Of a stretch of 13,499 nucleotides of DNA, positions 1,301-13,499 are shown one piece after another. The position numbers were made by a program, and so were the translations under genes. Position 1 is the stretch's first letter, and every line of letters begins with the position of its first letter. Source of the stretch: an uncultured Ruminococcus sp. (GTDB lineage: Bacteria; Bacillota; Clostridia; Oscillospirales; CAG-272); the NCBI GenBank assembly GCA_902778985.1, contig CACYZS010000010.1, positions 1 to 13,499 of the forward strand, written 5' to 3'. The notes beneath the pieces were generated by a model that saw only the letters and a program-made list of their open reading frames with translations, was not told the DNA's origin and searched no databases.

Positions 1301-1315
1301 GCCGGTCGAGGAGTC
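1286..1315. other. Probable chimeric junction, Bacteroidales-like to Clostridia-like DNA
   Basis: Within one open frame the protein changes from a cytoplasmic FAD oxidoreductase to an outer-membrane barrel around residues 280-282 (STG/VQT, near position 1300). The oxidoreductase stops just after its FAAGDCAEG motif, where the family normally continues for well over 100 residues. Codon choice changes at the same place, for example GTA valine right after the join, which is rare in the upstream part. A short shared stretch such as GYDSSTG could have allowed mis-joining in assembly. The exact base cannot be fixed from this sequence alone. Confidence 0.85.
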
Positions 1316-2143
1316 GTACCCCTCGGCGCAGTCGCCCGCGGCAAAGACCGAAGGAAGGTCGGTCGCGCATCTCTGATCGACCACGATCCCGCGGTTGACG
1401 GATCCCCCCGCGTCTTTGACCAGGTCGGTATTGGCGCGTACGCCGACGGCGAGCACCAGAACGTCGAAGTCCACGGTCTTCCCGCTCTTCATCGTCGCGA
1501 CGTTTCGGTCGAACTTCACCGCCGTATCGCCGAGCAGGAAGTCGATGCCGCTCTCTTCAAGGTGTTTCTGCACCACGGCGGCGCAGTCGGCGTCCAGGAT
1601 GCTCGACAGCACCCGGTCGGCAAGGTCGCAGACCGTGATCTGTCCGACGCGATCTTTGATCCCCTCGGCGCATTTCAGTCCGATCAGCCCCGCCCCGACG
1701 ATCAGTACGCGCGCCTTCCCGTCGAGCGCCCCTTCGAGCGCCAAAGCGTCGTCGAGGGTCATAAAGGAATACTTCTTTTCGACCGTGTCCAACCCTTCAA
1801 AGGGCGGGACGAAGGGACGCGAACCGGTCGCGATCAAGAGCGCGTCGTAGGGAAGGGCTTCGCCCCCGTCGAGCGTCACGGTCTTCTTGTTGGGATCCAG
1901 CGCGACGGCGCGGCGTCCGTAGAGCACCCGGCAGCCGTTCTTTTCGTAGAAGTCGGCGGGGCGGTAGTTCATTTTGGCAAGGTCGGTCTTGCCCATCAGG
2001 TAGTAGGAGATCAGGGGACGCCCGTAGACCGGACGGTCCTCCCCGGAGACGACCGTGATCTCCCCCTCCGCGTCAAGGGCGCGGATCCCTTCGATGCAGC
2101 CGACGGCGGCGGTGCCGTTGCCGACGATCACGTAGCGTTTCAT
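1301..2143 (-). CDS. FAD/NAD(P)H-dependent oxidoreductase of the glutamate synthase operon (3'-truncated)
   Basis: Start ATG at 2143 overlaps the ferredoxin stop by four bases (ATGA), and GGAG lies just before it. The first 281 residues belong to the pyridine-nucleotide-disulfide oxidoreductase superfamily: FAD-binding GNGTAAVG at residues 8-15, ATGSRP at 105-110, NAD(P)-binding GAGLIG at 150-155, and the second FAD contact FAAGDCAEG at 268-275. It resembles the nitrite/rubredoxin-reductase-like NADH oxidoreductases, about 410-450 residues long. The C-terminal third, carrying the dimer interface, is missing because of the join near 1300. By position it should take electrons from NAD(P)H and pass them through the adjacent ferredoxin to the FMN/Fe-S glutamate synthase subunit. 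The role in GOGAT is inferred from operon context; the fold assignment is firm. Confidence 0.88.
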
Positions 2144-2580
2144 TCTCCGTCGCCCCTTTCTTCGTAAACGATCGCTTTGTTCGGGCAGCCCGTCACGCAG
2201 GCGGGTTCGCCGCAGGCGTTCTCAAGGCAGAGTTCGCATTTCTGCATCGTCCCGTTCTCCCCCGGGGCGAGCGCGCCGTAGGGACAGACCAGAACGCAGG
2301 TCAGACACCCGACGCATTTGGTGCGGTCGATCTTCACCACGCCGTCCTTTTTGGAGATCGCCCCGGCGATGCAACTCTTGACGCAGAGCGGATCGGTGCA
2401 GTGGCGGCAGGAGACGGCGAAGGTGATCTTGTCGTCCCCCTCGACGTGGATGCGCGGGAAGATCTTCTTGTCCTTCAAGGCGAACGCCATATCCGAGAGA
2501 CCCGAATTGGCGAAGGCGCAGTTGTATTCGCAGAGATGGCAGCCGAGGCACCATTCTTCGTTGACGTAAACTCTTTTCAT
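2140..2580 (-). CDS. Four-cluster [4Fe-4S] ferredoxin subunit (DmsB/HycB-like)
   Basis: I chose the ATG at 2580 (146 residues, MKRVYVNEEWCLGC) because the frame upstream to 2676 is arginine-rich, non-conserved and overlaps a hairpin; purine-rich AAAGGA and CAGGA lie before this ATG. Sixteen cysteines fit four clusters: C11-C14-C17-C21, C58-C61-C66-C70, C89-C92-C95-C99, and C115-C118 with C128-C132. This is the pattern of electron-transfer subunits of molybdopterin oxidoreductases and hydrogenases, cytoplasmic and without signal peptide. Lying between the synthase subunit and the NAD(P)H oxidoreductase, it most likely wires the two together. It starts 121 bases after the synthase stop and overlaps the oxidoreductase ATG by four bases, so all are one operon. 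It could serve other electron donors; only the family is certain. Confidence 0.9.
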   Translation of the reverse strand: MKRVYVNEEWCLGCHLCEYNCAFANSGLSDMAFALKDKKIFPRIHVEGDDKITFAVSCRHCTDPLCVKSCIAGAISKKDGVVKIDRTKCVGCLTCVLVCPYGALAPGENGTMQKCELCLENACGEPACVTGCPNKAIVYEERGDGE

Positions 2581-2642
2581 TCCTGTTCGTAATTCCTTTC
2601 TTCCTTGCGCCGGCCGACGTTTGCGCGGTCGCCGCAAGGGGA

Positions 2643-2669
2643 TTTCGCGCCGCGCTTTTCGGCGCGAAA
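2643..2669 (-). repeat. Intra-operon perfect 9-bp hairpin
   Basis: Arms 2643-2651 (TTTCGCGCC) and 2661-2669 (GGCGCGAAA) are perfect inverted repeats around a nine-base loop, in the 121-base spacer between the synthase stop and the ferredoxin start. On the transcribed (minus) strand it is followed by C-rich sequence, not a run of T, so it is unlikely to be a strong intrinsic terminator. It may protect the upstream message from 3' exonuclease or adjust the ratio of synthase to ferredoxin. Confidence 0.5.
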
Positions 2670-2701
2670 AACGCAAACTCGAAGATTGACGGTCACGTCA
2701 A

Positions 2702-4207
2702 TCATTCACCCGCGTGTGCGATCCCGAGGATCGACAGTTCCTTTTCGTTCAGTCCGACGCCCCGGAGCATCAGACGGTTGCCGCGCAGCGCCTCGATCGA
2801 GTTGATGCCCATACCGCCCATGATCTCCATGATCTCGTGCCGCCAGGCGGTCATCAGGTTGACAAGCCGCTCGCTCCCGATGTCGGGATTCAGGCGCTTG
2901 ACCAGATCGGGACGCTGGGTGGCGATGCCCCAGTTGCATTTGCCGGACTGGCAGGTGCGGCAGAGATGGCACCCGAGCGCGAGCAGGGCGGCGGTGGCGA
3001 TGTAGCAGGCGTCGGCGCCCAGCGCGACCGCCTTCACCACGTCGGCGGCGCTGCGGATCGAACCGCCGACCACGAGCGAGACGTTGTTGCGGATCCCCTC
3101 GTCGCGCAGACGCTGATCCACCGCGGCGAGCGCCAGTTCGATCGGGATCCCGACGTTGTCCCGGATCCGGGTCGGCGCGGCGCCTGTCCCGCCGCGGAAA
3201 CCGTCGATCGCGATGACGTCCGCGCCGCTGCGCGCGATCCCGCTGGCGATGGCGGCGATGTTATGGACGGCGGCGACCTTGACGATCACCGGCTTCTCGT
3301 AGTTCGTCGCTTCTTTGAGCGAAAAGACCAGTTGGCGAAGGTCCTCGATCGAGTAGATGTCGTGATGCGGGGCGGGGGAGATGGCGTCCGAGCCCTCGGG
3401 GATCATACGGGTCCGCGACACGTCCCCGACGATCTTCGCGCCCGGCAGGTGTCCGCCGATACCCGGTTTTGCGCCCTGTCCCATCTTGATCTCGATCGCG
3501 GCGCCCGCGTTCAGGTAGTCCTCGTGCACGCCGAAGCGCCCCGACGCGACCTGCACGACCGTGTTCGCGCCGTACTGATAGAAGTCCTCGTGAAGTCCGC
3601 CCTCGCCGGTGTTGTAGAGGATCCCGAGTTCGGTCGCGGCGCGCGCGAGCGAGGCGTGGGCGTTGTAACTGATCGAACCGTAACTCATCGCCGAGAACAT
3701 GACCGGCATCGATAGTTCGATCTGCGGCGGGAGCGCGCAGTCGAGTTTGCCGTCGGGCGTCCGCGTGATCTTCTCGGGCTTCTTGCCGAGAAAGACGCGC
3801 GTCTCCATCGGCTCGCGGAGCGGGTCGATCGGCGGGTTGGTCACCTGCGACGCGTTGATCAGGATCTTGTCCCAGTAGACGGGCAGGGGAGCGGGGTTGC
3901 CCATCGAGGAGAGCAGCACGCCGCCGCTGTTCGCCTGTTTGTAGATCTCCTTGATGGTCTCGTTCTTCCAGTTGGCGTTCTCGCGCAGGGTACATTCGCT
4001 CCGAACGATCTTCAGCGCCCTGGTCGGGCAGAGCGAGACGCACCGCTGACAGTTGACGCATTTGGTCTCGTCGGAGACCATCACGCCGCGCTCGGTGCTG
4101 AAAGCGTGGACCTCGTTTGCGCATTGGCGTTCGCAGACGCGGCACGCGATGCAGCGATCCTTATCGCGGATCACTTCAAATTCGGGATAGATGAACTCGA
4201 CTCCCAT
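2702..4207 (-). CDS. gltB: Glutamate synthase, FMN/Fe-S synthase subunit with N-terminal ferredoxin domain (archaeal type)
   Basis: 501 residues from ATG 4207, one base after the amidotransferase stop (TGA-T-ATG), with AAGGAAGGGG upstream. Residues 19-29 (C19, C22, C25, C29) and 50-60 (C50, C53, C56, C60) form a 2x[4Fe-4S] ferredoxin domain. From about residue 100 the glutamate synthase TIM-barrel (Glu_synthase family) follows, with PVIVKVAAVHN near 306-316, the FMN/substrate motif AIDGFRGGTGAAP at 333-345, GGSIRSAADV at 381-390, and C413, C416, C419 and C424 preceding WGIATQRPDL, which should hold the 3Fe-4S cluster. It makes glutamate from 2-oxoglutarate and ammonia delivered by the amidotransferase. 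The fused ferredoxin domain and separate amidotransferase are the archaeal-type arrangement also seen in Clostridia. The GXGXG structural domain is not in this polypeptide. The gene looks intact. Confidence 0.93.
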   Translation of the reverse strand: MGVEFIYPEFEVIRDKDRCIACRVCERQCANEVHAFSTERGVMVSDETKCVNCQRCVSLCPTRALKIVRSECTLRENANWKNETIKEIYKQANSGGVLLSSMGNPAPLPVYWDKILINASQVTNPPIDPLREPMETRVFLGKKPEKITRTPDGKLDCALPPQIELSMPVMFSAMSYGSISYNAHASLARAATELGILYNTGEGGLHEDFYQYGANTVVQVASGRFGVHEDYLNAGAAIEIKMGQGAKPGIGGHLPGAKIVGDVSRTRMIPEGSDAISPAPHHDIYSIEDLRQLVFSLKEATNYEKPVIVKVAAVHNIAAIASGIARSGADVIAIDGFRGGTGAAPTRIRDNVGIPIELALAAVDQRLRDEGIRNNVSLVVGGSIRSAADVVKAVALGADACYIATAALLALGCHLCRTCQSGKCNWGIATQRPDLVKRLNPDIGSERLVNLMTAWRHEIMEIMGGMGINSIEALRGNRLMLRGVGLNEKELSILGIAHAGE

Positions 4208-4208
4208 A

Positions 4209-5303
4209 TCAGTACGCCCCTTCCTTTACGTTCACGACGACCGGTTCGCCGCCCGCCGGCGACCATACGTTTTCCGCCGCGGGTTCCATCGCCCGGATCG
4301 CCGCCTCTTCGCTCGCGATATAGACGCGGTCGCCCTTTTCCGCGACCACCATCGACCGGAGTTTCAGCCGGTCGTTCAGCGCCATCAGCCCGCCGTTGTA
4401 CCCGAGCACGATCGAGAACGGCCCGGTGATGAGAAGGCTCGGGAAGACGGTGCGGAGGTAGTGCAGTTTTTCCTTCTCGTACGCGTCCTCTTTGTTCGCG
4501 ATGGTGCTCCAGAACGGAGCGGCGATCACGTTCGCCGCCTCGGAAAGCGAGAGCCCCTGCCTGCGCGTTAAATAATCCAATATATACGTTATGACCTCGG
4601 TATCGGTCTGTAAGGTGCATTTGTAACCGAACATCTCGATAAACCGACGGTTGGCGTCGTAGGACGAGATCTCGCCGTTGTGGACGATCGAGTAGTCGAG
4701 CAGGGCGAAGGGATGCGCGCCGCCCCACCAACCCGGCGTGTTGGTCGGGTATCTGCCGTGCGCCGTCCAACTGTACCCCTCGTACTCGTCGAGGCGGTAG
4801 AACACGCCGACGTCCTCCGGGAAGCCGACCGCCTTGAAGGTCCCCATGTTCTTCCCGCTCGAGAAGACGTAGGCGCCGTCCAGTTCGGTGTTGATCTTCA
4901 TGACCGTGCGCGCGACGAACTCCTTTTCGTCGAGTTGCAGGTCGGAGAGCACCGATTTCAGCGGCGTGACGAAGTAGCGCCAGATGATCGGCTCGTCGGT
5001 GATCTCGGGGATCTTCCGCGTCGGAATGATCTCGCCCCGGACGATCTCAAAGTGCTCCTTTAGCAGCGCCTCGCACGCCTTTCTCGTGTCCCGGCAGTCG
5101 AAGAACAGGTGCAGGGCGTAAAAATCGCGGTACTCGGGATAGATCCCGTAACCGGCGAACCCGCCGCCCAGTCCGTTCGAGCGGTCGTGCATGGGCTTCA
5201 TCGCCCGCATGATGCCCTCGCCCGTCATACGCTCGCCTTCGCGCGAGATGACCGCCGCGATCGCGCAGCCCGAGGGGATCCTGATCTTGCCTTCTCTTTC
5301 CAT
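4209..5303 (-). CDS. Class-II glutamine amidotransferase subunit of split glutamate synthase
   Basis: First gene of the minus-strand operon. I prefer ATG 5303 (364 residues, MEREGKIRIPSGCAIAAVIS) over the ATG at 5366: AAAGGA and GGGA lie just upstream, and the earlier start would fall in the leader hairpin. Ntn-type amidotransferase features are HGRYPTNTP at 182-190, HPF at 197-199 and IVHNGEISSYDANRR at 206-220. The likely nucleophile is C13 in SGCAI, so a short propeptide must be removed to free it, as in some PurF proteins. It hydrolyses glutamine and supplies ammonia to the synthase subunit encoded one base downstream. It lacks any synthase or asparagine-synthetase domain, consistent with the split archaeal-like GOGAT. 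The leader carries a consensus promoter and an attenuator-like hairpin. Confidence 0.88.
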   Translation of the reverse strand: MEREGKIRIPSGCAIAAVISREGERMTGEGIMRAMKPMHDRSNGLGGGFAGYGIYPEYRDFYALHLFFDCRDTRKACEALLKEHFEIVRGEIIPTRKIPEITDEPIIWRYFVTPLKSVLSDLQLDEKEFVARTVMKINTELDGAYVFSSGKNMGTFKAVGFPEDVGVFYRLDEYEGYSWTAHGRYPTNTPGWWGGAHPFALLDYSIVHNGEISSYDANRRFIEMFGYKCTLQTDTEVITYILDYLTRRQGLSLSEAANVIAAPFWSTIANKEDAYEKEKLHYLRTVFPSLLITGPFSIVLGYNGGLMALNDRLKLRSMVVAEKGDRVYIASEEAAIRAMEPAAENVWSPAGGEPVVVNVKEGAY

Positions 5304-5319
5304 ATTCCCGTTCCTTTCC

Positions 5320-5380
5320 GAAATAAAGAAAAGGCGCCGTTTTTGCGCAGTGATACACGTGCGCAAAAATGAACGCCTTT
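5320..5380 (-). terminator. Leader hairpin, possible attenuator, before the glutamate synthase operon
   Basis: In the minus-strand transcript, an outer stem (5374-5380 with 5330-5336, AAAGGCG/CGCCTTT) encloses a small internal loop and a perfect 10-bp inner stem (5360-5369 with 5340-5349, TTTTTGCGCA). The loop itself can close further (GTG/CAC). The 3' arm runs into T-rich sequence, TCTTTATTTC at 5329-5320, so the hairpin has the form of an intrinsic terminator sitting between promoter and first gene. Whether it terminates or only folds is inference. Confidence 0.55.
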
Positions 5381-5395
5381 GCTCATTTTTTCTGC

Positions 5396-5424
5396 ATTAT
5401 AGCACACGAAAGGTATCTTGTCAA
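5396..5424 (-). promoter_or_regulatory. Consensus sigma-A promoter for the glutamate synthase operon
   Basis: On the minus strand a perfect TTGACA (5424-5419) is followed after exactly 17 bases by a perfect TATAAT (5401-5396). Transcription should start near 5388-5390, giving a leader of about 85 bases to the amidotransferase ATG. Both boxes match the consensus exactly, so the promoter should be strong without an activator; control probably acts in the leader. Confidence 0.85.
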
Positions 5425-5475
5425 GTGCAAGAGGGGGCTCAAAAAAACTTTTTTCGAAAATTTCGCAAAAAGGGA

Positions 5476-5504
5476 TTGACAAACGGCGCGGGGAGGTGTA
5501 TAAT
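5476..5504 (+). promoter_or_regulatory. Consensus sigma-A promoter for the glutamine synthetase operon
   Basis: A perfect TTGACA (5476-5481), a 17-base spacer and a perfect TATAAT (5499-5504) drive the plus strand. The start point should be near 5511, leaving a structured leader of about 140 bases before the synthetase ATG at 5654. The two divergent -35 boxes are 51 bases apart; the gap contains A/T runs and a short palindrome CGAAAATTTCG at 5455-5465. Confidence 0.87.
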
Positions 5505-5520
5505 GCGTCGTGTTAAAGGC

Positions 5521-5565
5521 AATGGCGTCTTTGAGCGATGGGCTCAAAGGCGCGATTTTCTTTTT
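5521..5565 (+). terminator. Leader hairpin 1 with T-tract, probable attenuator
   Basis: Arms 5521-5536 and 5542-5557 pair over 15 of 16 positions (one G-G mismatch, one G-U) around a five-base loop GATGG. They are followed immediately by TTTTCTTTTT (5556-5565). This is the classic form of an intrinsic terminator, placed about 10 bases after the predicted start of transcription and before the first gene. A full terminator here only makes sense if read-through is regulated. Confidence 0.65.
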
Positions 5566-5590
5566 CCGACAAGTCCATATTACGGAAGGC

Positions 5591-5641
5591 AACGGCGTCT
5601 TTCATGTGAGAAACCATGAAAGGCGCCGTTATCCGATTTTT
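5591..5641 (+). promoter_or_regulatory. Leader hairpin 2, next to the glnN ribosome binding site
   Basis: Arms 5591-5606 and 5615-5630 pair at all 16 positions (one G-U) around an eight-base loop TGAGAAAC. TTTTT follows at 5637-5641, then AAGGAGG at 5642-5648 and ATG at 5654. The 5' arm repeats that of hairpin 1: GGCAAYGGCGTCTTT at 5518-5532 and 5588-5602, one difference in 15. The first arm of hairpin 1 could pair with the last arm of hairpin 2, so the two folds may be alternatives. Confidence 0.6.
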
Positions 5642-5653
5642 AAGGAGGAAAAC

Positions 5654-7750
5654 ATGAAATCGGTAAGTGAAACGTTCGGGAGCATGGTGTTCGACGACAG
5701 AGTGATGCGGGCGACCTTGTCCGCCAAGGTGTACGCGTCGCTGAAGAAGACGATCGACGAGGGCGAGACGCTGGACATCGGCGTCGCCAACGCAGTCGCG
5801 CAGGCGATGAAGGATTGGGCGGTCGAGCGCGGCGCGACCCACTTCACCCACTGGTTCCAGCCGCTGACCGGCATCACCGCCGAGAAGCATGACAGTTTCA
5901 TTTCTCCCTCGCCCGACGGCAGCGTGATCATGGAGTTCTCGGGCAAGGAACTGATCAAGGGCGAGCCCGACGCTTCGTCCTTCCCGTCCGGCGGTCTTCG
6001 CGCGACCTTCGAGGCGCGCGGCTACACCGCGTGGGACCCGACCTCCTACGCGTTTATCAAAGGAAAGACGCTCTGCATCCCGACCGCGTTCTGCTCCTAC
6101 GGCGGACACGCGCTGGATAAGAAAACGCCGCTGCTCCGCTCGATGGAAGCCCTGAACCGTCAGGCGCTCCGCATCCTGCGTCTGTTCGGCAACGATACCG
6201 CCAAGTGCGTGCGCAGTTCGGTCGGTCCCGAGCAGGAATACTTCCTCATTACCAAGGAAATGTACGACGCCCGTCCCGACCTCCGCTTCTGCGGCAGAAC
6301 CCTCTTCGGCGCGAAGCCCCCGAAAGGGCAGGAGATGGACGACCACTACTTCGGCGCCATCAAACCGAAGGTCGCGGAGTTCATGGAAGACCTGAACGAA
6401 GAACTCTGGAAACTCGGCATCATGGCGAAGACCGAACACAACGAGGTCGCCCCGGCGCAGCACGAACTGGCGCCCATCTACACCACCACCAACGTCGCCA
6501 CCGACCACAACCAGTTGACGATGGAGATGATGCAGAAGGTCGCGTCCAAACACGGTCTGGTCTGCCTGCTCCACGAGAAGCCCTTCGCAGGAGTGAACGG
6601 CAGCGGCAAACACAACAACTGGTCGATCGCGACCAGCGACGGACAGAACCTGCTGTCTCCGGGTGAAACGCCCTACGAGAACGCGCAGTTCCTGCTCTTC
6701 CTGTGCGCCGTCATCAAGGCGGTCGACGACTACCAGGATCTGCTTCGCATCTCGGTCGCGACGGCGGGCAACGACCACCGTCTCGGCGCAAACGAGGCGC
6801 CCCCGGCGGTGATCTCGATGTTTTTGGGCGACGAACTCTCGGCGGTGCTCGACGCGATCGAGAACGACGCGCCCTACAAGGGAGCCGAGAAGACGCAGAT
6901 GAAACTGGGCGTGCACGTCCTGCCCAAGTTCAACCGCGACACCACCGACCGCAACCGTACCTCGCCCTTCGCCTTCACCGGCAACAAGTTCGAGTTCCGG
7001 ATGCTCGGCTCGTCGAACAGCATCGCCTGCGCGAACATCATGCTGAACTCCGCCGTCGCCGAGAGTCTGAAGATCTACGCAGACAAACTCGAGGGCGCGA
7101 AGAACTTTGAGACCGCGCTCCACGACCTGATCAAGGAGACCATCAAGAAGCATAAACGCATCATCTTCAACGGCAACGGCTACGACGACGCCTGGATCAA
7201 AGAGGCTACGACGGTCCGCGGACTGCTCAATTTCCGCACCACCGCCGACTGTATGCCGCACCTGCTCGATAAGAAGAACGTCGATATGCTGACCTCTCAC
7301 AAGGTCTTCACGGTCGAGGAACTGAAATCCCGCTGCGAGATCATGCTCGAAAACTACTGCAAATCGGTCACCATCGAGGCGAATACCATGATCGATATGG
7401 CGAAGACCGAGATCGCGCCCGCGATCGAACGCTTCACCGCGGATCTTGCGCGCAACCTCGCCGCCAAGAAAGCCGCCGTTCCCTCGGCTGCCTGCGCTTA
7501 CGAAACCGACCTGATCGGCAAACTCTCGTCGCTGACCGACCGGATCGTTTCGGCGGTCTCCGACCTGCAGAGTTCGGTCATCGCCCTGCACGACTGTGAC
7601 GGCGTGATCGCGGAATCCGAATCGATCCGCGACGACGTGCTGCTCAAGATGTGCGCGCTCCGGCTCGCCTGCGACGAGGCGGAGACCCTGACCGAAAAGA
7701 AATACTGGCCCTATCCGACCTACGCCGACATTCTGTTCAGCGTGAGGTAA
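5654..7750 (+). CDS. glnN: Type III glutamine synthetase (GlnN)
   Basis: I chose ATG 5654 because AAGGAGG lies six bases upstream and the protein then begins [18 protein letters not shown], the usual GSIII start; the frame upstream to 5510 is leader. At 698 residues it has the normal GSIII length, much longer than GSI. Family blocks are [14 protein letters not shown] at 60-73, [19 protein letters not shown] near 96-114, [11 protein letters not shown] at 189-199 (metal-binding glutamates), [13 protein letters not shown] at 259-271 and [17 protein letters not shown] at 308-324 (active site). It makes glutamine from glutamate, ammonia and ATP in the cytoplasm and is the entry point for ammonium carried in by the next gene's product. 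It heads the plus-strand operon behind a consensus promoter and a two-hairpin leader. GSIII is common in Bacteroidetes, Clostridia and cyanobacteria; here codon use groups it with the Clostridia-like block. Confidence 0.97.
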
Positions 7751-7782
7751 AACCGATGATTGAATAATAAGGAGATACTTCC

Positions 7783-9537
7783 ATGACACCCCAAGAGATC
7801 CTCACACTTATCAAAGAAACCGCAACAAGCGAAGTTTTCGGCGTTTGGTTTCTGATCGGCGCCGCGCTCGTCTTCTTCATGCAGGCAGGGTTCGCGATGG
7901 TCGAGACCGGCTTCACCCGCGCAAAGAACGCCGGAAATATCATCATGAAGAACCTGATGGACTTCTGCATCGGGACGGTGGTCTTCGTCCTTCTCGGTTT
8001 CTCTCTGATGATGGCGGAGGACTACGTACTCGGGGTGATCGGCGTTCCGAACCTCAAGATTTTGACCGACTTCGGCGGTTTCCTTGCCGACGGTAACGCG
8101 CCGTCCTTCGTTTTTAACCTCGTGTTCTGCGCGACGGCGGCGACCATCGTTTCCGGCTCCATGGCGGAACGCACCAAGTTTCTCTCCTACTGCATCTATT
8201 CCGGCGTCATCTCGCTCTTCGTCTATCCGGTCGAGGCGGGATGGGTCTGGAACCAAGCCGGGTGGCTCGTGAAACTCGGTTTCCACGATTTCGCCGGTTC
8301 CGCGGCGATCCACTCGGTCGGCGGCACCGCCGCCCTGATCGGGGCGATCATGGTCGGTCCCCGTCTCGGCAAGTACGTGAAGGACGCCGCAGGGAAAGTG
8401 ACCAAAGTCAACGCGATCCAGGGGCACGCCGTCACCCTCGGCGCCCTCGGCTGCTTCATTCTCTGGTTCGGCTGGTACGGCTTCAACGGCGCTGCCGCGT
8501 GGGACGGCGACTCGCTCGCGTCGATCTTCGTGACCACCACCATCGCGCCCGCCGTCGCGACCTGCACGACCATGATCTTTACCTGGATCAAGAACGGCAA
8601 ACCCGACGTCTCGATGTGCTTGAACGCCTCGCTTGCGGGGCTGGTCGGGATCACGGCGGGCTGCGACGCGCTTGACGCCGTGGGTTCGACGGTCGTCGGG
8701 ATCGTTTCGGGTATCCTCGTGGTCGTCGTGGTCGAGGTGCTTGACCTGAAACTCCATATCGACGATCCGGTCGGCGCCGTCGGCGTCCACTTCGCAAACG
8801 GGATCTGGGGCACGATCGCGGTGGGGCTTCTTGCCAACCCCGACGCTCCGGCAGGGCTGAAAGGGCTCTTCTATACCGGCAGTTTCCGTCTCCTCGGCGT
8901 GCAGGCGCTCGGGATCGTCGCGATCCTTGCCTGGACCGCCGCCCTGATGACGCTGACCTTCTTCATCATCAAGCGGACGGTCGGACTGCGCGTTTCTCCC
9001 GAAGAGGAGATCAAGGGGCTCGACAGTACCGAACACGGTCTTCCGAGCGCGTACGCCGATTTCGTCCCCGCCGTGGAGAGCCTGGACTACGGCTTCTCGG
9101 GCGCCGTCGCCGTTTCGGGCGAAATGCCGGTCTCCGAGGCGATCCCGGTCAAGCGCGTGCCGTCGTTTGACGAGACGCAGCCCAAGTTTACCAAGATCGA
9201 GATCATCTGCAAGGAGCCTCGTTTTGAAGCGCTGAAAGCCGCGATGATGGACATCGGGATCACCGGCATGACGGTCTCGCACGTCCTCGGGTGCGGCGCG
9301 CAGAAGGGACAGCCCGAATACTACCGCGGCGTCCCGGTCGAAGCAACTCTGCTCCCGAAGATCCAGGTGGATATCGTGGTCAGCAAGGTGCCGGTGCGGC
9401 ACGTGATCGAGACCGCGAAGAAGGTACTTTACACCGGACATATCGGCGACGGGAAGATCTTCGTATACGACGTGGAGAACGTCGTGAAGGTCCGTACCGG
9501 CGAGGAAGGATACGACGCCCTGCAGGACGTGGAGTAA
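7783..9537 (+). CDS. amt: Ammonium transporter fused to a C-terminal P-II (GlnB/GlnK) domain
   Basis: 584 residues from ATG 7783, 32 bases after glnN, with AAGGAGA upstream. Residues 15-400 form the multi-helix Amt channel, including MQAGFAMVETG at 33-43, HDFAGSAAIHSVGGTAALIG at 168-187 and GAVGVHFANGIWGT at 331-344. H177 and H336 appear to be the twin pore histidines. The Amt C-terminal signature GLRVSPEEEIKGLDSTEHGL is at 401-420. After a linker, residues 469-584 are a complete P-II domain: KIEIICK at 471-477, the T-loop after KGQPEYYRG at 508-516, LLPK at 523-526, IGDGKIFVYDV at 554-564 and RTGEE at 571-575. P-II proteins bind ATP/ADP and 2-oxoglutarate and gate Amt, so this channel carries its own sensor. 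The position of GlnB Tyr51 is valine (V519), so uridylylation there is ruled out. Confidence 0.96.
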   Translation: MTPQEILTLIKETATSEVFGVWFLIGAALVFFMQAGFAMVETGFTRAKNAGNIIMKNLMDFCIGTVVFVLLGFSLMMAEDYVLGVIGVPNLKILTDFGGFLADGNAPSFVFNLVFCATAATIVSGSMAERTKFLSYCIYSGVISLFVYPVEAGWVWNQAGWLVKLGFHDFAGSAAIHSVGGTAALIGAIMVGPRLGKYVKDAAGKVTKVNAIQGHAVTLGALGCFILWFGWYGFNGAAAWDGDSLASIFVTTTIAPAVATCTTMIFTWIKNGKPDVSMCLNASLAGLVGITAGCDALDAVGSTVVGIVSGILVVVVVEVLDLKLHIDDPVGAVGVHFANGIWGTIAVGLLANPDAPAGLKGLFYTGSFRLLGVQALGIVAILAWTAALMTLTFFIIKRTVGLRVSPEEEIKGLDSTEHGLPSAYADFVPAVESLDYGFSGAVAVSGEMPVSEAIPVKRVPSFDETQPKFTKIEIICKEPRFEALKAAMMDIGITGMTVSHVLGCGAQKGQPEYYRGVPVEATLLPKIQVDIVVSKVPVRHVIETAKKVLYTGHIGDGKIFVYDVENVVKVRTGEEGYDALQDVE

Positions 9538-9541
9538 CGCT

Positions 9542-11125
9542 ATGTGTTCGATATTCGGATATTGCGGTCCCGTCCCGGACAGGACTGCGTTTGAAAAAGC
9601 GTTTGAGCAAACCAAATCACGCGGACCGGACGACAGTCGCGTGATCGGGGCGGGCGACGGGCTGATCGCCTTTCACCGCCTTTCGATCATGGGGCTGACG
9701 CCCGAAGGAATGCAGCCGTTCACCCTGAACGGCTGCACCGCCGTATGTAACGGGGAACTCTATGGTTTTACGCGCGAGCGCGCGAAACTACTGGAAAAAG
9801 GCTATACTTTTCAGAGCGACAGCGACTGCGAGATCCTGCTCCCGATGTATTTCGAGTACGGGACCGACCTGTTCCGAAAACTCGACGCCGAGTTTGCCTG
9901 CGTGATCTGGGACGGTCGGAGCGGGGAATGGATCGCCGCCCGCGACCCGATCGGGATCCGCCCGCTCTACTACGGCTACGACCGAAACGGAACGATCCTC
10001 TTCGCGAGCGAAGCGAAGAACCTCGTCGGGCTTGCGGGGAAGATCATGCCCTTCCCGCCGGGGCACTACTACAAGGGCGGACGCTTCGTTTGCTACCACG
10101 ATCCCGCGAAGGTCGACGCGACGTGCCGCGACGACGTCGAGACCGCCTGCAAACAGATCCGCGAGAAACTGGTCGCCGGGGTGGAAAAACGGCTGATCTC
10201 CGACGCCAAGGTCGGGTTCCTGCTTTCGGGCGGGCTGGACAGTTCGCTCGTCTGCGCGATCGCGCAGAAGAAGTGCACTCATCCGATCAAGACCTTCGCG
10301 ATCGGAATGAGCGAGGACGCGATCGACCTCAAGTACGCGCGGCAGGTCGCCGACTACATCGGCGCCGACCACACCGAGGTCTACATGACCCCGGACGACG
10401 TGATCGCCTCGCTTGAGGACGTGGTGCGGCTGCTCGGAACCTTCGACATCACCACGATCCGCGCGAGTATGGGAATGTACCTGGTCTGCAAAGCCATTCA
10501 CGAGACGACGGATCTTAGGGTGCTGCTTACCGGGGAGATCTCGGACGAACTCTTCGGCTACAAGTACACCGACTTCGCCCCGTCCCCCGAGGAGTTCCAG
10601 AAGGAAGCCGAGAAGCGGATCTCGGAACTCCACGTCTACGACGTTCTGCGCGCCGACCGCTGCATTTCGGTCAACTCGCTCGAAGCGCGGGTGCCCTTCG
10701 GCGATCTCGATTTCGTCAAGTACGTGATGGCGCTCGATCCCGCGATCAAGATGAACGTGTACGGAAAAGGGAAGTACCTGCTCCGGCACGCGTTCGAGGG
10801 GCTCGGCTACCTGCCCGATTCGATCCTCTGGCGCGAGAAAGCGGCGTTCTCCGACGCGGTCGGCCATTCGATGGTCGACGACCTGAAGGAATACGCCGAG
10901 CGGACCTACACCGACGAAGAGTTCGAAAAGCGTCGGCAGAAGTACGACTACGCGCGCCCCTTCACCAAAGAATCGCTGCTCTACCGCGAACTGTTTGAAA
11001 AGTACTACCCCGGACAGGCGGAGATGATCCCCGGCTTCTGGATGCCCAACAAGAGTTGGCAGGGATGCGACGTGAACGATCCGTCGGCACGCGTTCTTTC
11101 AAACTACGGCGACAGCGGAAAATAA
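9542..11125 (+). CDS. asnB: Asparagine synthetase, glutamine-hydrolysing
   Basis: 527 residues from ATG 9542, four bases after the transporter stop, with GTGGAG inside the end of that gene as ribosome site. MCSIFGYCG puts the amidotransferase nucleophile at C2; SRGPDDS, HRLSIMG and the NGELYG motif complete the class-II glutaminase. The synthetase domain has the pyrophosphate loop SGGLDSS at 229-235, TGEISDELFGYKY near 337-349 and LWREKAAFSDAVG near 430-442. It converts aspartate, glutamine and ATP to asparagine, glutamate, AMP and pyrophosphate. Length and motifs match AsnB of other bacteria (E. coli about 554). In this operon it directly consumes the glutamine made by GlnN. It appears intact. 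Confidence 0.95.
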   Translation: MCSIFGYCGPVPDRTAFEKAFEQTKSRGPDDSRVIGAGDGLIAFHRLSIMGLTPEGMQPFTLNGCTAVCNGELYGFTRERAKLLEKGYTFQSDSDCEILLPMYFEYGTDLFRKLDAEFACVIWDGRSGEWIAARDPIGIRPLYYGYDRNGTILFASEAKNLVGLAGKIMPFPPGHYYKGGRFVCYHDPAKVDATCRDDVETACKQIREKLVAGVEKRLISDAKVGFLLSGGLDSSLVCAIAQKKCTHPIKTFAIGMSEDAIDLKYARQVADYIGADHTEVYMTPDDVIASLEDVVRLLGTFDITTIRASMGMYLVCKAIHETTDLRVLLTGEISDELFGYKYTDFAPSPEEFQKEAEKRISELHVYDVLRADRCISVNSLEARVPFGDLDFVKYVMALDPAIKMNVYGKGKYLLRHAFEGLGYLPDSILWREKAAFSDAVGHSMVDDLKEYAERTYTDEEFEKRRQKYDYARPFTKESLLYRELFEKYYPGQAEMIPGFWMPNKSWQGCDVNDPSARVLSNYGDSGK

Positions 11126-11148
11126 AACACGACAAGGAGATAAGGACA

Positions 11149-11784
11149 ATGGAAAAGAGAGAGCAACTTTACGAGGGCAAGGCGAAAAAGGTCTTCAAGA
11201 CCGACGATCCCGAAAAACTGATCGTCGCGTACAAGGACGACGCGACGGCGTTCAACGGACTGAAAAAAGGGACCATCGTCGGCAAGGGCGTCATCAACAA
11301 CCAGATGAGCAACCGCCTGATGAAACTGCTTGAACAAGAGGGGATCCCCACCCATCTCGTGAAGGAACTTTCCGAGCGCGAGACGCTGGTGAAGCGGGTG
11401 TCGATCGTCCCGCTCGAGGTCATCGTACGGAACATTTCGGCGGGATCGTTTGCGAAAAGATACGGCGTGGAGGAAGGGATCGTTTTCCCCTCCCCCACGA
11501 TCGAGTTTTCTTATAAGAACGACGCGCTCGGCGATCCGCTCCTGAACCGCTACCACGCGCTGGCGCTGGGGCTCGCGACCGAAAAGGAACTGGACACCAT
11601 CGCCTCGTACAGTTTCAGGATCAACGAGATCCTCTCGGCGTTCTGGAAAGGGTGCGGCGTGATCCTGGTGGACTTCAAACTCGAGTTCGGACGGCTCTCC
11701 GACGGCACGATCGTGCTCGCCGACGAGATCAGCCCCGACACCTGCCGTCTCTGGGACACCAAAACCAAAGAAAAACTCGACAAA
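11149..11784 (+). CDS. purC: SAICAR synthetase PurC (3'-truncated by chimeric join)
   Basis: ATG 11149 has AAGGAG upstream and lies 23 bases after asnB; the frame further upstream overlaps asnB and is not used. 212 residues match PurC closely: YEGKAKKVF at 8-16, DDATAFNG at 30-37, PLEVIVRNISAGSFAKRYG at 88-106, LVDFKLEFG at 173-181 and LADEISPDTCRLWD at 190-203. The enzyme joins aspartate to CAIR with ATP in purine synthesis. PurC usually has about 235 residues, so some 20 at the C-terminus are missing; after KEKLDK the frame runs straight into unrelated AT-rich kinase sequence. The composite frame 11149-13410 would encode 753 residues. Its presence behind glnN-amt-asnB suggests the nitrogen operon continues into purine genes in the source genome. 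Confidence 0.92.
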
Positions 11785-11800
11785 ACTGAAGAGGATCTCC
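11765..11800. other. Probable chimeric junction, Clostridia-like to ciliate-like DNA
   Basis: Base composition changes abruptly near 11785 from GC-rich to about three-quarters A+T, and codons switch from CTG/CTC/ATC/CGC to TTA/ATA/ATT/AGA. The protein changes from PurC, just short of its normal end, to a eukaryotic kinase with a lysine/aspartate-rich linker. The sequence at the join is A-rich on both sides (AAAGAAAAACTCGACAAAAC), which would favour accidental overlap. The frame continuing is a coincidence of the join. Confidence 0.9.
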
Positions 11801-13410
11801 TTTGTAATATAAACAAGCTAAAAGACGAAGAAAAAGACGATGATAATAAATCGAATTTATCCCAATCGCGTGATTGTTTATATTATCAAAACGAATTAGA
11901 AAAATTATCCACATATATAAAAACATATTTTCTTGAGAAAAAATCATATCCAGAATCGAACACAAAATTTTATTTATTCGGTAGAGAGATTGGTCATGGG
12001 GCCTTCGGCAAAGTTAATTTATGTTTGCATATTGGGAGTGGGCATTTAGTTGCGATGAAAACATTTGTGAAAAATAATACAAAATATAAAGAGTCAAAAG
12101 AAAAATTAAAAAATGAAGTTGAAGTCCTGAGTAAATTGCACCATCCTTTCATTAATCAAATATTAGATAATTTCGAAACTGATACTCATTTTTTTATTGT
12201 TATGGAATATATTTGCGGAGATTTATTAACTTTTATTAGGAAAAGAAATAAATTAAATGAACAAATTGCCAAAGTTATTTTTAAACAATTAATCGAAGGT
12301 TTAAAATATATCCATAAAAAAAATATAATTCATCGTGATATTAAATTAGATAATATTTTAATTGATACCACTAATACTGTTAAAATTTGCGATTTTGGGG
12401 TGAGTAGAAAAATTCAAAAAGGAGAAAAAATTTATGAAAGGTGTGGTACCCCTGCATATATTGCTCCGGAAATTTATAAAAAAATTGGATATACTGGATT
12501 TCAAAGTGATGTTTGGTCGGCGGGGGTTACATTGTATTATATACTTAGTGGAAATTTACCTTTTAAAGGGAATAATATACATGATTTGGAAAATGCTATT
12601 CTTTTAGGAGAATATAAAAAAATAAGAGATATATCATTCGAAGCAAGCGATATTATCGATAGAATGTTAAAATTAAATCCTGCCGAAAGAATAACAATCG
12701 AGGAATTATTAAAACATCCCTGGTTAAAAAATGTAAATTTATCAAATCGTCACAAATTAAACATTTTTACCAAAGCCGAGAAAAAAGTTCTCTCGAAATA
12801 TTACATCGATTATTTAAATTCCTCCAAAACAGATTTACTCGAAAATTTCACCTATCGAAATTTAACAATCGATAACAGCAAAAAACGGCTTGGGGGGAAT
12901 ACCAAAAGTGTGATTTATGCCCCATATAATACTTGTATGAACGAAAATGAGGATTTTACAAAAAGAATAAAAAAGAAAAAAGTTGATATGTCTTATTTAA
13001 GCAAAGAAGAATTAGCGCTGTATAAAGAATTAAAAGTCGAAAATGATATTTGCAAATTTGGCTGGAGGGTGAGACAAGCGAATATTAATTATGAATTATC
13101 AAATAATGATGATTTTGATAATGGACTAATTAAATCTCTGGATGAGGATGGGGGGAAACATTCGAAAAAAACTGAGGAAAATTATTTTAGTGATAGTTTA
13201 TCGATGGAAAGTATACAAGATTACGAAAAAATTCAGATAAATGAAAATATTTTGAAATATATCGAAAATAAAATCGGATATAATCAAAAATATTTAATCA
13301 AATGTCTCAAAAAAAATATTATTAATTATGCGACGGCTGCTTATTATTTGAAATTTAAAGAAGAAACAAATAAAAATGATAAAGAAGAAAATATTTTTAT
13401 TAATAATTGA
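11785..13410 (+). CDS. Ciliate-type SNF1/AMPK-like serine/threonine protein kinase (5'-truncated)
   Basis: A eukaryotic protein kinase read in frame from the PurC fragment; its own start codon is not in the window. After about 65 polar residues the domain shows GHGAFGKV (11992-12015), the VAMK lysine (12058-12060), the catalytic loop HRDIKLDN (12331-12354), DFG (12391-12399) and GTPAYIAPE (12445-12471), so it should be active. It phosphorylates serine/threonine and is nearest to the CAMK/SNF1 group. The C-terminal region carries KSVIYAPYN, CKFGWRVRQANINYELSNND (from 13051) with DNG after it, and a UBA-like end, ENILKYIENKIGYNQKYL with YATAAYYLK (13243-13356). From memory, this combination is typical of the expanded Tetrahymena/Paramecium kinase family. 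No intron-like interruption is seen. It ends at TGA 13408-13410. It has nothing to do with the bacterial operon. Confidence 0.85.
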   Translation, partial: TEEDLLCNINKLKDEEKDDDNKSNLSQSRDCLYYQNELEKLSTYIKTYFLEKKSYPESNTKFYLFGREIGHGAFGKVNLCLHIGSGHLVAMKTFVKNNTKYKESKEKLKNEVEVLSKLHHPFINQILDNFETDTHFFIVMEYICGDLLTFIRKRNKLNEQIAKVIFKQLIEGLKYIHKKNIIHRDIKLDNILIDTTNTVKICDFGVSRKIQKGEKIYERCGTPAYIAPEIYKKIGYTGFQSDVWSAGVTLYYILSGNLPFKGNNIHDLENAILLGEYKKIRDISFEASDIIDRMLKLNPAERITIEELLKHPWLKNVNLSNRHKLNIFTKAEKKVLSKYYIDYLNSSKTDLLENFTYRNLTIDNSKKRLGGNTKSVIYAPYNTCMNENEDFTKRIKKKKVDMSYLSKEELALYKELKVENDICKFGWRVRQANINYELSNNDDFDNGLIKSLDEDGGKHSKKTEENYFSDSLSMESIQDYEKIQINENILKYIENKIGYNQKYLIKCLKKNIINYATAAYYLKFKEETNKNDKEENIFINN

Positions 13411-13499
13411 AAATAATAATTTTATAAGAGTTTTTTTTTTTGGAAATATGTTGTATTAATATCATTTAATTTTTATTTTATTTTTATTAATAAAATATA
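13411..13499 (+). other. AT-rich 3' flank of the ciliate gene
   Basis: About 90 bases of nearly pure A and T with a run of twelve T (around 13429-13440). I see no ORF, RNA gene or telomeric repeat. In-frame TAA TAA follow one codon after the TGA. It is probably the untranslated end of the kinase gene. Confidence 0.5.

Follow-up and report, generated by a model that had tools for sequence, protein, structure and literature searches.

How two divergent nitrogen-assimilation operons are transcribed past the terminators in their own leaders is the question raised by positions 5303-5654 of a 13,499-nucleotide stretch of DNA from an uncultured Ruminococcus sp. (the window; GenBank contig CACYZS010000010.1, contig G000:C10 of a draft genome of 1.65 Mb in 250 contigs, 86% complete). 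Profile matches in the window place the divergence point of the two operons here, with the glutamate synthase genes on the minus strand (gltB operon) and the type III glutamine synthetase gene glnN at the head of the plus-strand operon. Both operons are very probably controlled by antitermination of the NitR type, in which a protein with an ANTAR domain would act on solo hexaloop hairpins, one per terminator, at the 5' ends of the leader RNAs. Control of clostridial nitrogen genes by an ANTAR switch is as such not new, since NitR of Clostridium saccharobutylicum is described as an ANTAR antiterminator which induces the genes of the glutamine synthetase/glutamate synthase (GS/GOGAT) cycle under nitrogen limitation (PMC6316151), and a similar role has been suggested for an ANTAR gene adjoining nitrogen genes in C. 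thermocellum (PMC4676874). New in our view is that solo elements are placed 5'-terminally against terminators, that glnN leaders use this layout in tandem, and that it is widely conserved.

Promoters, hairpins and terminators in the two leaders

A preliminary description of this stretch, made from the sequence alone, had noted perfect TTGACA-17-TATAAT promoters in front of both operons, and this proved correct. Sigma-A promoters matching at 12 of 12 positions are located at 5476-5504 on the plus strand (glnN operon) and at 5424-5396 on the minus strand (gltB operon; TTGACA 5424-5419, TATAAT 5401-5396); they are the only two 12/12 sites in the window, where promoter-like sites number 19 compared to 6.9 +/- 2.8 in shuffled sequences. 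The stable hairpin running into a T-rich tract that had been described for each leader was likewise recovered: the plus leader (5511-5660) folds with -60.5 kcal/mol (z -6.1) and the minus leader (5390-5296) with -32.7 kcal/mol (z -4.4), and for both of them 0 of 200 shuffles were as low. The earlier count of one terminator per strand was right for the terminator of the gltB leader (5380-5330, minus strand; dG -26.1 kcal/mol by folding, T-rich tract at about 5329-5320) and for T1 of the glnN leader (5525-5553, plus strand; -22.0 kcal/mol, T-rich tract 5556-5565), but it had overlooked a second plus-strand terminator, T2 (5583-5635; -29.7 kcal/mol by folding, TTTTT 5637-5641), and three hexaloop hairpins. 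T1, found by consensus scan and by folding, is the sole leader terminator listed by the consensus scan, from which the minus terminator and T2 are absent; all three pass the fold-based terminator test. Terminator-like sites are not enriched over the whole window (14 compared to 16.4 expected).

The three hexaloop hairpins were found by scanning the intergenic region with the ANTAR recognition rule, i.e. a six-base loop with A in the first and G in the fourth position (A1/G4) on a paired stem, and all of them have the form C[AANGGC]G. On the minus strand, P(-) extends from 5388 to 5367 (AAATGAGC[AAAGGC]GTTCATTT, loop 5380-5375, C-G closed, dG -6.1 kcal/mol); on the plus strand, P1 occupies 5513-5534 (TTAAAGGC[AATGGC]GTCTTTGA, loop 5521-5526, -5.8 kcal/mol) and P2 occupies 5584-5603 (GGAAGGC[AACGGC]GTCTTTC, loop 5591-5596, -5.9 kcal/mol), with its loop 70 nt further downstream than that of P1. 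The 5' arm of the minus terminator includes the loop and the 3' strand of P(-), and the two structures are therefore mutually exclusive; T1 overlaps the 3' strand of P1, and T2 overlaps P2. When leader prefixes of increasing length are folded, the hexaloop hairpin appears first, at 26-32 nt, and the terminator from 44 nt (plus) or 56 nt (minus) onwards; further down the plus leader, prefixes of 92-110 nt contain P2, which gives way to T2 at 116 nt. Since the hexaloop hairpins (about -6 kcal/mol) are far less stable than the terminators (-22 to -30 kcal/mol), something must hold the hairpin if the polymerase is to read through.

Conservation and solo layout of the element

Defined by an AANG[GA] hexaloop, a stem of at least 5 bp and a T-run, the element is present exactly once in 44 of 49 distinct gltB-GATase leaders (those for which 150 nt or more of upstream sequence was available) and twice in none of them, and in 52 glnN leaders (at least 65% identity) it occurs once in 25 and twice in 18. 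Dinucleotide shuffles carry it at a rate of 1.5-1.6% (gltB: 1.5% of 980); the preliminary description had staked its proposal on conservation of the hairpins in relatives, and conserved they are. Under the strict rule, a single element was found in 285 stretches upstream of GltSyn, FeS, PyrRedox, Amt, AsnB, PurC and ANTAR genes, and eight were found in 78 stretches upstream of GlnA. A looser rule was discarded for its background: it scored in 10 of 53 stretches upstream of GltSyn, the strict rule in 1 of 53. The promoters picked in gltB leaders have a 6/6 -35 box with a 17-nt spacer in 36 and a 6/6 -10 box in 32 of 48 cases, about five of the 48 (L133, L135, L137, L139, L175) being mispicked by the stem-free picker.

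Covariation was assessed in a set anchored on strong promoters (402 in 110 sources), for which the selection rule fixes the loop and closing pair, C[AANG(GA)N]G, and leaves the remaining stem free. This yielded 92 distinct sites, 84 with a stem of at least 5 bp and 83 with a T-run. Double-change cells number 167 compared to 64 +/- 16 in shuffles (none of 500 reached 167) and to at most 40 in slid structures, although these shuffles do not preserve relatedness and much of the count is supplied by the contrast between two element families, the gltB type and the glnN type. A broader, stem-blind set comprising any AANG[GA] 11-19 nt after a strong promoter contained 147 sites, with a stem of at least 5 bp in 92 (63%) compared to 20% after random re-pairing; 39 sites have no stem, many of them resembling ribosome-binding sites by eye, and the set was then narrowed to the 92 sites above. 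An earlier covariation count in our first alignment (labelled A1, like the loop position by coincidence) was set aside as partly circular.

The layout of the element was examined in 145 elements distinct by sequence and with fold-verified terminators, which come from 66 of 110 partly overlapping sources and include the three of the window. In all of them the hexaloop overlaps and excludes an intrinsic terminator, this overlap being part of the search rule for the 145. The A1/G4 hexaloop, whose A and G also belonged to the selection rule, is C-G closed in 143 of the 145 and sits on a paired, covarying stem; the two elements closed otherwise (L123 -7390 and L184 +16887) are probably chance finds.

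The models of ANTAR antitermination considered here (PMC3369931, PMC7496416, PMC8934654) rest on two closely spaced hexaloops, and paired leader hairpins had also been expected for this locus. This expectation was not borne out, as each terminator has its own solo hexaloop. A second ANNGNN hairpin of at least 4 bp ending within 30 nt upstream accompanies only 1 of the 145 elements, and with a looser pair rule (at least 3 bp, linker 2-25 nt) such tandem hexaloops are found for 7 of 145 compared to 13.6 expected at random positions of the same DNA. A -10 box with five or six matches precedes 99 of the 145 elements, and in 82 of these 99 it ends 7-11 nt before the 6-bp stem, which leaves no room in the RNA for a classical partner hairpin. 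Transcripts usually start about 7 nt after the -10 box; judged from the -10 position, the RNA would thus begin with the hexaloop hairpin. As a positive control, the same scan detected classical pairs at two loci (L235 and L239) among those of other ANTAR proteins (L233-L243). Near ANTAR genes not of the NitR type, single hexaloop-plus-terminator elements were also noted (L233 -12695, L236 +11856, L240 +7111, L241 -16534, L242 -11436), with promoter-like boxes, where seen, farther upstream; solo elements, by our rule with one hexaloop each, may therefore not be limited to the NitR type. The literature searched, which did not extend to the supplementary tables of Ramesh et al. or to Stutz et al. 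2007, gave no description of solo-hexaloop antiterminators.

Two hexaloops are nevertheless present in the glnN leader, and EutV requires a pair (PMC3369931), so that one might think of classical dual-hexaloop control, with P1 and P2 acting as one pair or with an unseen transcript start supplying the second hairpin. We consider this improbable. Hairpins P1 and P2 are 49 nt apart in the window, and the loops of 23 same-strand tandem pairs are separated by 61-115 nt, whereas for EutV a 14-nt linker drastically reduces induction in vivo (PMC3369931) and 20 extra nt abolish antitermination in vitro (PMC8934654). Moreover, T1 is located between P1 and P2 and would end transcription before P2 is made, gltB leaders contain a single hexaloop, and the short distance from -10 box to stem speaks against an unseen start.

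Perfect promoters followed by leader terminators are also typical of attenuation by riboswitches. That the leaders are riboswitches for glutamine or ammonium, or targets of an antisense or small RNA, with the ANTAR gene being incidental, is nonetheless very unlikely, even though an antisense RNA has been reported for the C. saccharobutylicum system (PMC6316151). No Rfam family reaches its gathering score in the window (mir-513 gives 24.6 bits compared to a cut-off of 72.1), the conserved unit consists of a hairpin of about 16-22 nt plus terminator, the loop fits the ANTAR recognition rule, and the element is linked to an ANTAR gene; the ligand-binding RNA that the preliminary description had offered as an alternative finds no support. 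Finally, since the leader hairpins fold as strong terminators, they could in principle be plain intrinsic terminators insulating two divergent operons. This is hardly credible, because terminators placed downstream of the promoters and ahead of glnN and gltB would, if unregulated, shut off both genes, and because the hexaloop overlapping each terminator is conserved with covariation.

The ANTAR regulator and a model for antitermination

The preliminary description had proposed to look for an ANTAR gene in the source genome, and one was detected (PF03861, E 5.8e-15, above cut-off), on another small contig and directly behind glnA. A putative cognate ANTAR protein is thus encoded in the same genome, the exception among relatives being G009. 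In five intact relatives (L044, L045, L048, L050, L055), the genes for GATase, Glu_synthase, the Fe-S subunit, the oxidoreductase, GlnA and ANTAR follow each other in this order on one strand, with the glnN leader divergent. This order puts the ANTAR gene at the end of the operon that is preceded by the minus hexaloop. On the divergent side, GlnN is followed by Amt/PII and AsnB in three of the five and by AsnB alone in L050; L055 ends in the glnN leader. When a single genome was scanned for each species, the pattern was matched at least 592 times, and among the matches listed 579 encode a relative. In the best 80 loci, labelled mostly as Clostridia metagenome-assembled genomes from herbivore guts plus some Lachnospiraceae, GlnA is encoded directly upstream of the ANTAR gene in 76 and a contig end is found in the other four, so that the gene shows the NitR-type linkage to glnA and glutamate synthase genes. 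The same glnA-ANTAR arrangement was seen outside the Clostridia in metagenome-assembled genomes labelled Flexilinea and Chloroflexi (L189, L181), by horizontal transfer or by binning error.

Element and regulator are also linked across the genomes of the genus, 11 of 60 of which have the ANTAR gene. A hairpin model gave 21 matches of at least 25.3 bits, 19 of them in 8 of the 11 ANTAR-bearing genomes and two in G009; this cut was set post hoc, most matches are seeds of the model, and at most 128 candidates were scored per genome. More telling is that in the other 48 ANTAR-less genomes no match to the model exceeds 25.0 bits. Four glnN genes from ANTAR-less genomes (L058, L059, L061, L062) have no element.

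The ANTAR protein shows profile matches to Rv1626, AmiR and EutV, and Pfam reports ANTAR as the sole family for two of the proteins. Its predicted structure (predicted local distance difference test score, pLDDT, 87.9) combines a receiver-like fold with a long helix and the helices of the ANTAR domain. In a Foldseek search, two Rv1626 entries rank top by E-value (template modelling score, TM, 0.52-0.53) and RNA-bound EutV (6ww6) ranks third, and EutV has the highest whole-length TM of the top rows, 0.79. A phosphorylatable receiver Asp is missing: at the position that we take to be the phospho-acceptor site of the receiver family, all 42 aligned ANTAR proteins have an invariant Asn59, where Rv1626 has Asp. 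The signal sensed by the protein is thus probably other than phosphorylation. The RNA contacts K143, K147, K149, E160 and M172 of EutV (whose residue numbers, by our reading, are shifted by 2 relative to the chain) align to R147, R151, K153, E164 and M176 and are kept or conservatively changed, and EutV Y164 corresponds to H168, which is invariant and is shared with AmiR as a His; R142, N173, R175 and R177 are not kept.

Coordinated attenuation by an ANTAR antiterminator, as the preliminary description suggested, is well supported by the ANTAR gene, by the same operon in five relatives and by the covarying stems beneath the A1/G4 loops. By default, constitutive strong initiation would be followed by a stop at the leader terminators. 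At the 5' end of the RNA, the hexaloop hairpin would form before any other structure, and in the inducing state the NitR-type ANTAR protein would catch this single hairpin as the RNA leaves the polymerase; the held hairpin would then keep the 5' arm out of the terminator helix and allow read-through. Two such hairpin-terminator units would act in series in the glnN leader. With the ANTAR gene behind its own attenuator, the circuit would be self-amplifying. The signal would probably reach the ANTAR protein by contact or by a ligand, most plausibly via GlnA encoded directly upstream, as a receiver lacking the usual phospho-Asp makes an AmiR-like control by a partner likely. In Bacillus, glutamine synthetase controls TnrA, and by this analogy GlnA is the first candidate as signalling partner. 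The Bacillus control is also mentioned in the review that describes NitR (PMC6316151).

An ANTAR dimer might, in addition, bridge the nascent gltB and glnN RNAs in trans, with the solo hexaloop of one transcript on each of its two domains, in which case the two divergent operons would be released from termination together. A divergent element is found within 350 bp of 97 of the 145 elements, with loop distances of 119-300 bp, and the dimer in the EutV crystal binds two separate RNA molecules, one with each domain (PMC8934654). We regard bridging as doubtful at best, because 47 of the 145 elements have no divergent partner and the authors of the EutV study consider trans binding unlikely (PMC8934654).

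Several observations weigh against NitR-type antitermination by solo hexaloops. By our rule, five of the 49 gltB-GATase leaders (L127, L137, L138, L139, L145) and nine of the 52 glnN leaders have no element. Of five covariation measures, one does not exceed shuffles, namely how many pairs show changes on both sides (5 versus 3.8, reached in 101 of 500), and the results from the A1 and R1 seeds are partly circular because these seeds were chosen for stems (A1: at least 5 bp). G009, a draft genome that is 92% complete, has two strong elements, and an ANTAR gene was not found in it; the ANTAR-bearing G021, G044 and G049 have best matches of 21.1, 23.3 and 22.7 bits, below the cut of 25.3, the ANTAR gene of G021 and G044 being located on a contig of about 4 kb. 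T2 may be weak, as its main helix ends 6 nt before the short T5 tract. With respect to the protein, EutV N173, R175 and R177 align to D177, C179 and S181, and R142 aligns to Ile, so that the RNA contacts would differ in part from those of EutV, in which the N173/R175/R177 triple mutation abolished binding (PMC8934654). In EutV, loss of the first hexaloop ablates induction (PMC3369931), and for NasR, binding to a single hairpin is about 12-fold weaker than to the pair (PMC7496416).

Among known systems, NitR probably belongs to the same regulator family as the protein described here, judging from the account of the work of Stutz et al. 2007 in the review PMC6316151. Compared to NitR as described there, the present system has a defined solo element at the predicted RNA 5' end and a regulator behind its own element, and the element covers glnN, gltB, gdhA, pyrG and guaA leaders. 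EutV of the Enterococcus faecalis eut operon likewise involves a receiver-like plus ANTAR protein of the same fold and an A1/G4 hexaloop with conserved closing pairs which overlaps the 5' arm of a terminator (PMC3369931, PMC8934654). However, antitermination by EutV depends on two hexaloops joined by a 5-12 nt linker (PMC3369931), and EutV is activated by phosphorylation, whereas here each terminator has one hexaloop and the phospho-Asp is replaced by Asn. AmiR (Pseudomonas amiE leader) and NasR (Klebsiella nasF leader) are ANTAR antiterminators that are also not driven by a phosphorylated receiver, and AmiR shares the His at the position of EutV Tyr164, but paired hexaloops are described as their targets, and AmiC and a NIT domain, respectively, as their sensors.

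Ramesh et al. 2012 predicted many ANTAR elements at nitrogen genes, in regulons such as that of Desulfotomaculum acetoxidans, where they likewise precede genes for P-II, ammonium transporter, glutamine synthase and glutamate synthase, and with several attenuators per transcription unit as observed here (PMC3369931). These elements were defined as dual hairpins, and solo elements would thus go unlisted; a search in actinobacteria was likewise restricted to two stems joined by a 2-25 nt linker (PMC8164766). According to Walshe et al. 2022, one hexaloop is the binding unit and two are required for antitermination, and solo sites are expected where no transcribing polymerase sets a time limit; what single hexaloops do is left open there, with a call for bioinformatic and experimental work (PMC8934654). 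The single hexaloops mentioned there are an extra one in the EutX RNA and mycobacterial stem-loops that are not always dual, that is, a protein-sequestering RNA and ribosome-site or 5'-untranslated-region elements, whereas the single hexaloops described here face terminators under the time limit of transcription (PMC8934654). They represent a large natural set of conserved, covarying solo hexaloops against terminators with a linked regulator, and the question whether one hexaloop is enough to beat a terminator becomes directly testable. The system points to a way in which many gut and rumen Clostridia may tune ammonium assimilation, and it provides a search rule (promoter, solo hexaloop, terminator) which searches for dual hairpins have not used.

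Wider regulon and surroundings of the locus

Solo elements also precede the NADP-glutamate dehydrogenase gene gdhA in L047, L157, L162 and L173 and the CTP synthase gene pyrG in L053 (902-2509, plus strand) and L145 (10608-12203, minus strand), all above NCBIfam equivalog cut-offs, as well as an N-terminal piece of GMP synthase (guaA) in L160, above the cut-off of the N-terminal domain model. Together with glnN, gltB, amt and asnB, the theme of the regulon is glutamine and ammonium use, and pyrG behind solo leaders suggests that glutamine-dependent nucleotide enzymes are part of it. Twenty lower-scoring matches to the hairpin model (at most 25.6 bits; 17 from ANTAR-bearing genomes, three from the ANTAR-less G010 and G025) were set aside; they lie within stop-free frames of 157-823 codons. 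One of them, with the hexaloop AAAGGA and 25.6 bits at G045:C67:5996-6021 (L094), follows a promoter-like site without a terminator and, read by eye, lies just before the start of a glutamyl-tRNA synthetase gene; it could be a chance find or a case of ribosome-site control, and is an unproven member of the regulon.

In the window, profile matches identify the genes of the minus-strand operon as those for the glutamate synthase amidotransferase-domain subunit (GATase_2, 4209-5303, the first gene), the flavin mononucleotide (FMN)/central-domain subunit (Glu_synthase, 2702-4207), a 4Fe-4S ferredoxin-like subunit (2140-2580) and a pyridine nucleotide-disulphide oxidoreductase (1302-2143), behind which glnA and then the ANTAR gene follow in intact relatives. 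On the plus strand, glnN (5654-7750; GSIII_N 7.1e-81) is followed by an ammonium transporter gene fused to a PII domain (7783-9537), with Amt (21-420) and P-II (470-574) in a single polypeptide, by the asparagine synthetase gene asnB (9542-11125) and by purC (SAICAR synthetase, 11143-11783).

The contig is chimeric at both ends, as intact relatives align only from about 1302 to 11783. At one end, alignment to relatives begins at 1302-1307 and truncates the oxidoreductase gene, which continues in frame across this joint into an outer-membrane beta-barrel gene of Bacteroidota type (PF14905) in positions 1-1302. At the other, the alignment to an intact relative ends at 11783, up to which purC is genuine; the gene continues in frame into AT-rich DNA (11783-13499, 25-29% GC) with a gene for a eukaryote-like Ser/Thr protein kinase (Pkinase 3.6e-73). 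The same draft genome perhaps contains a third chimeric joint, since the N-terminal part of glnA at about 3652-4446 of L063 (G000:C153) is, by eye, unlike the usual GlnA start of relatives. The chimeric ends of the contig leave the finding on the two leaders untouched.

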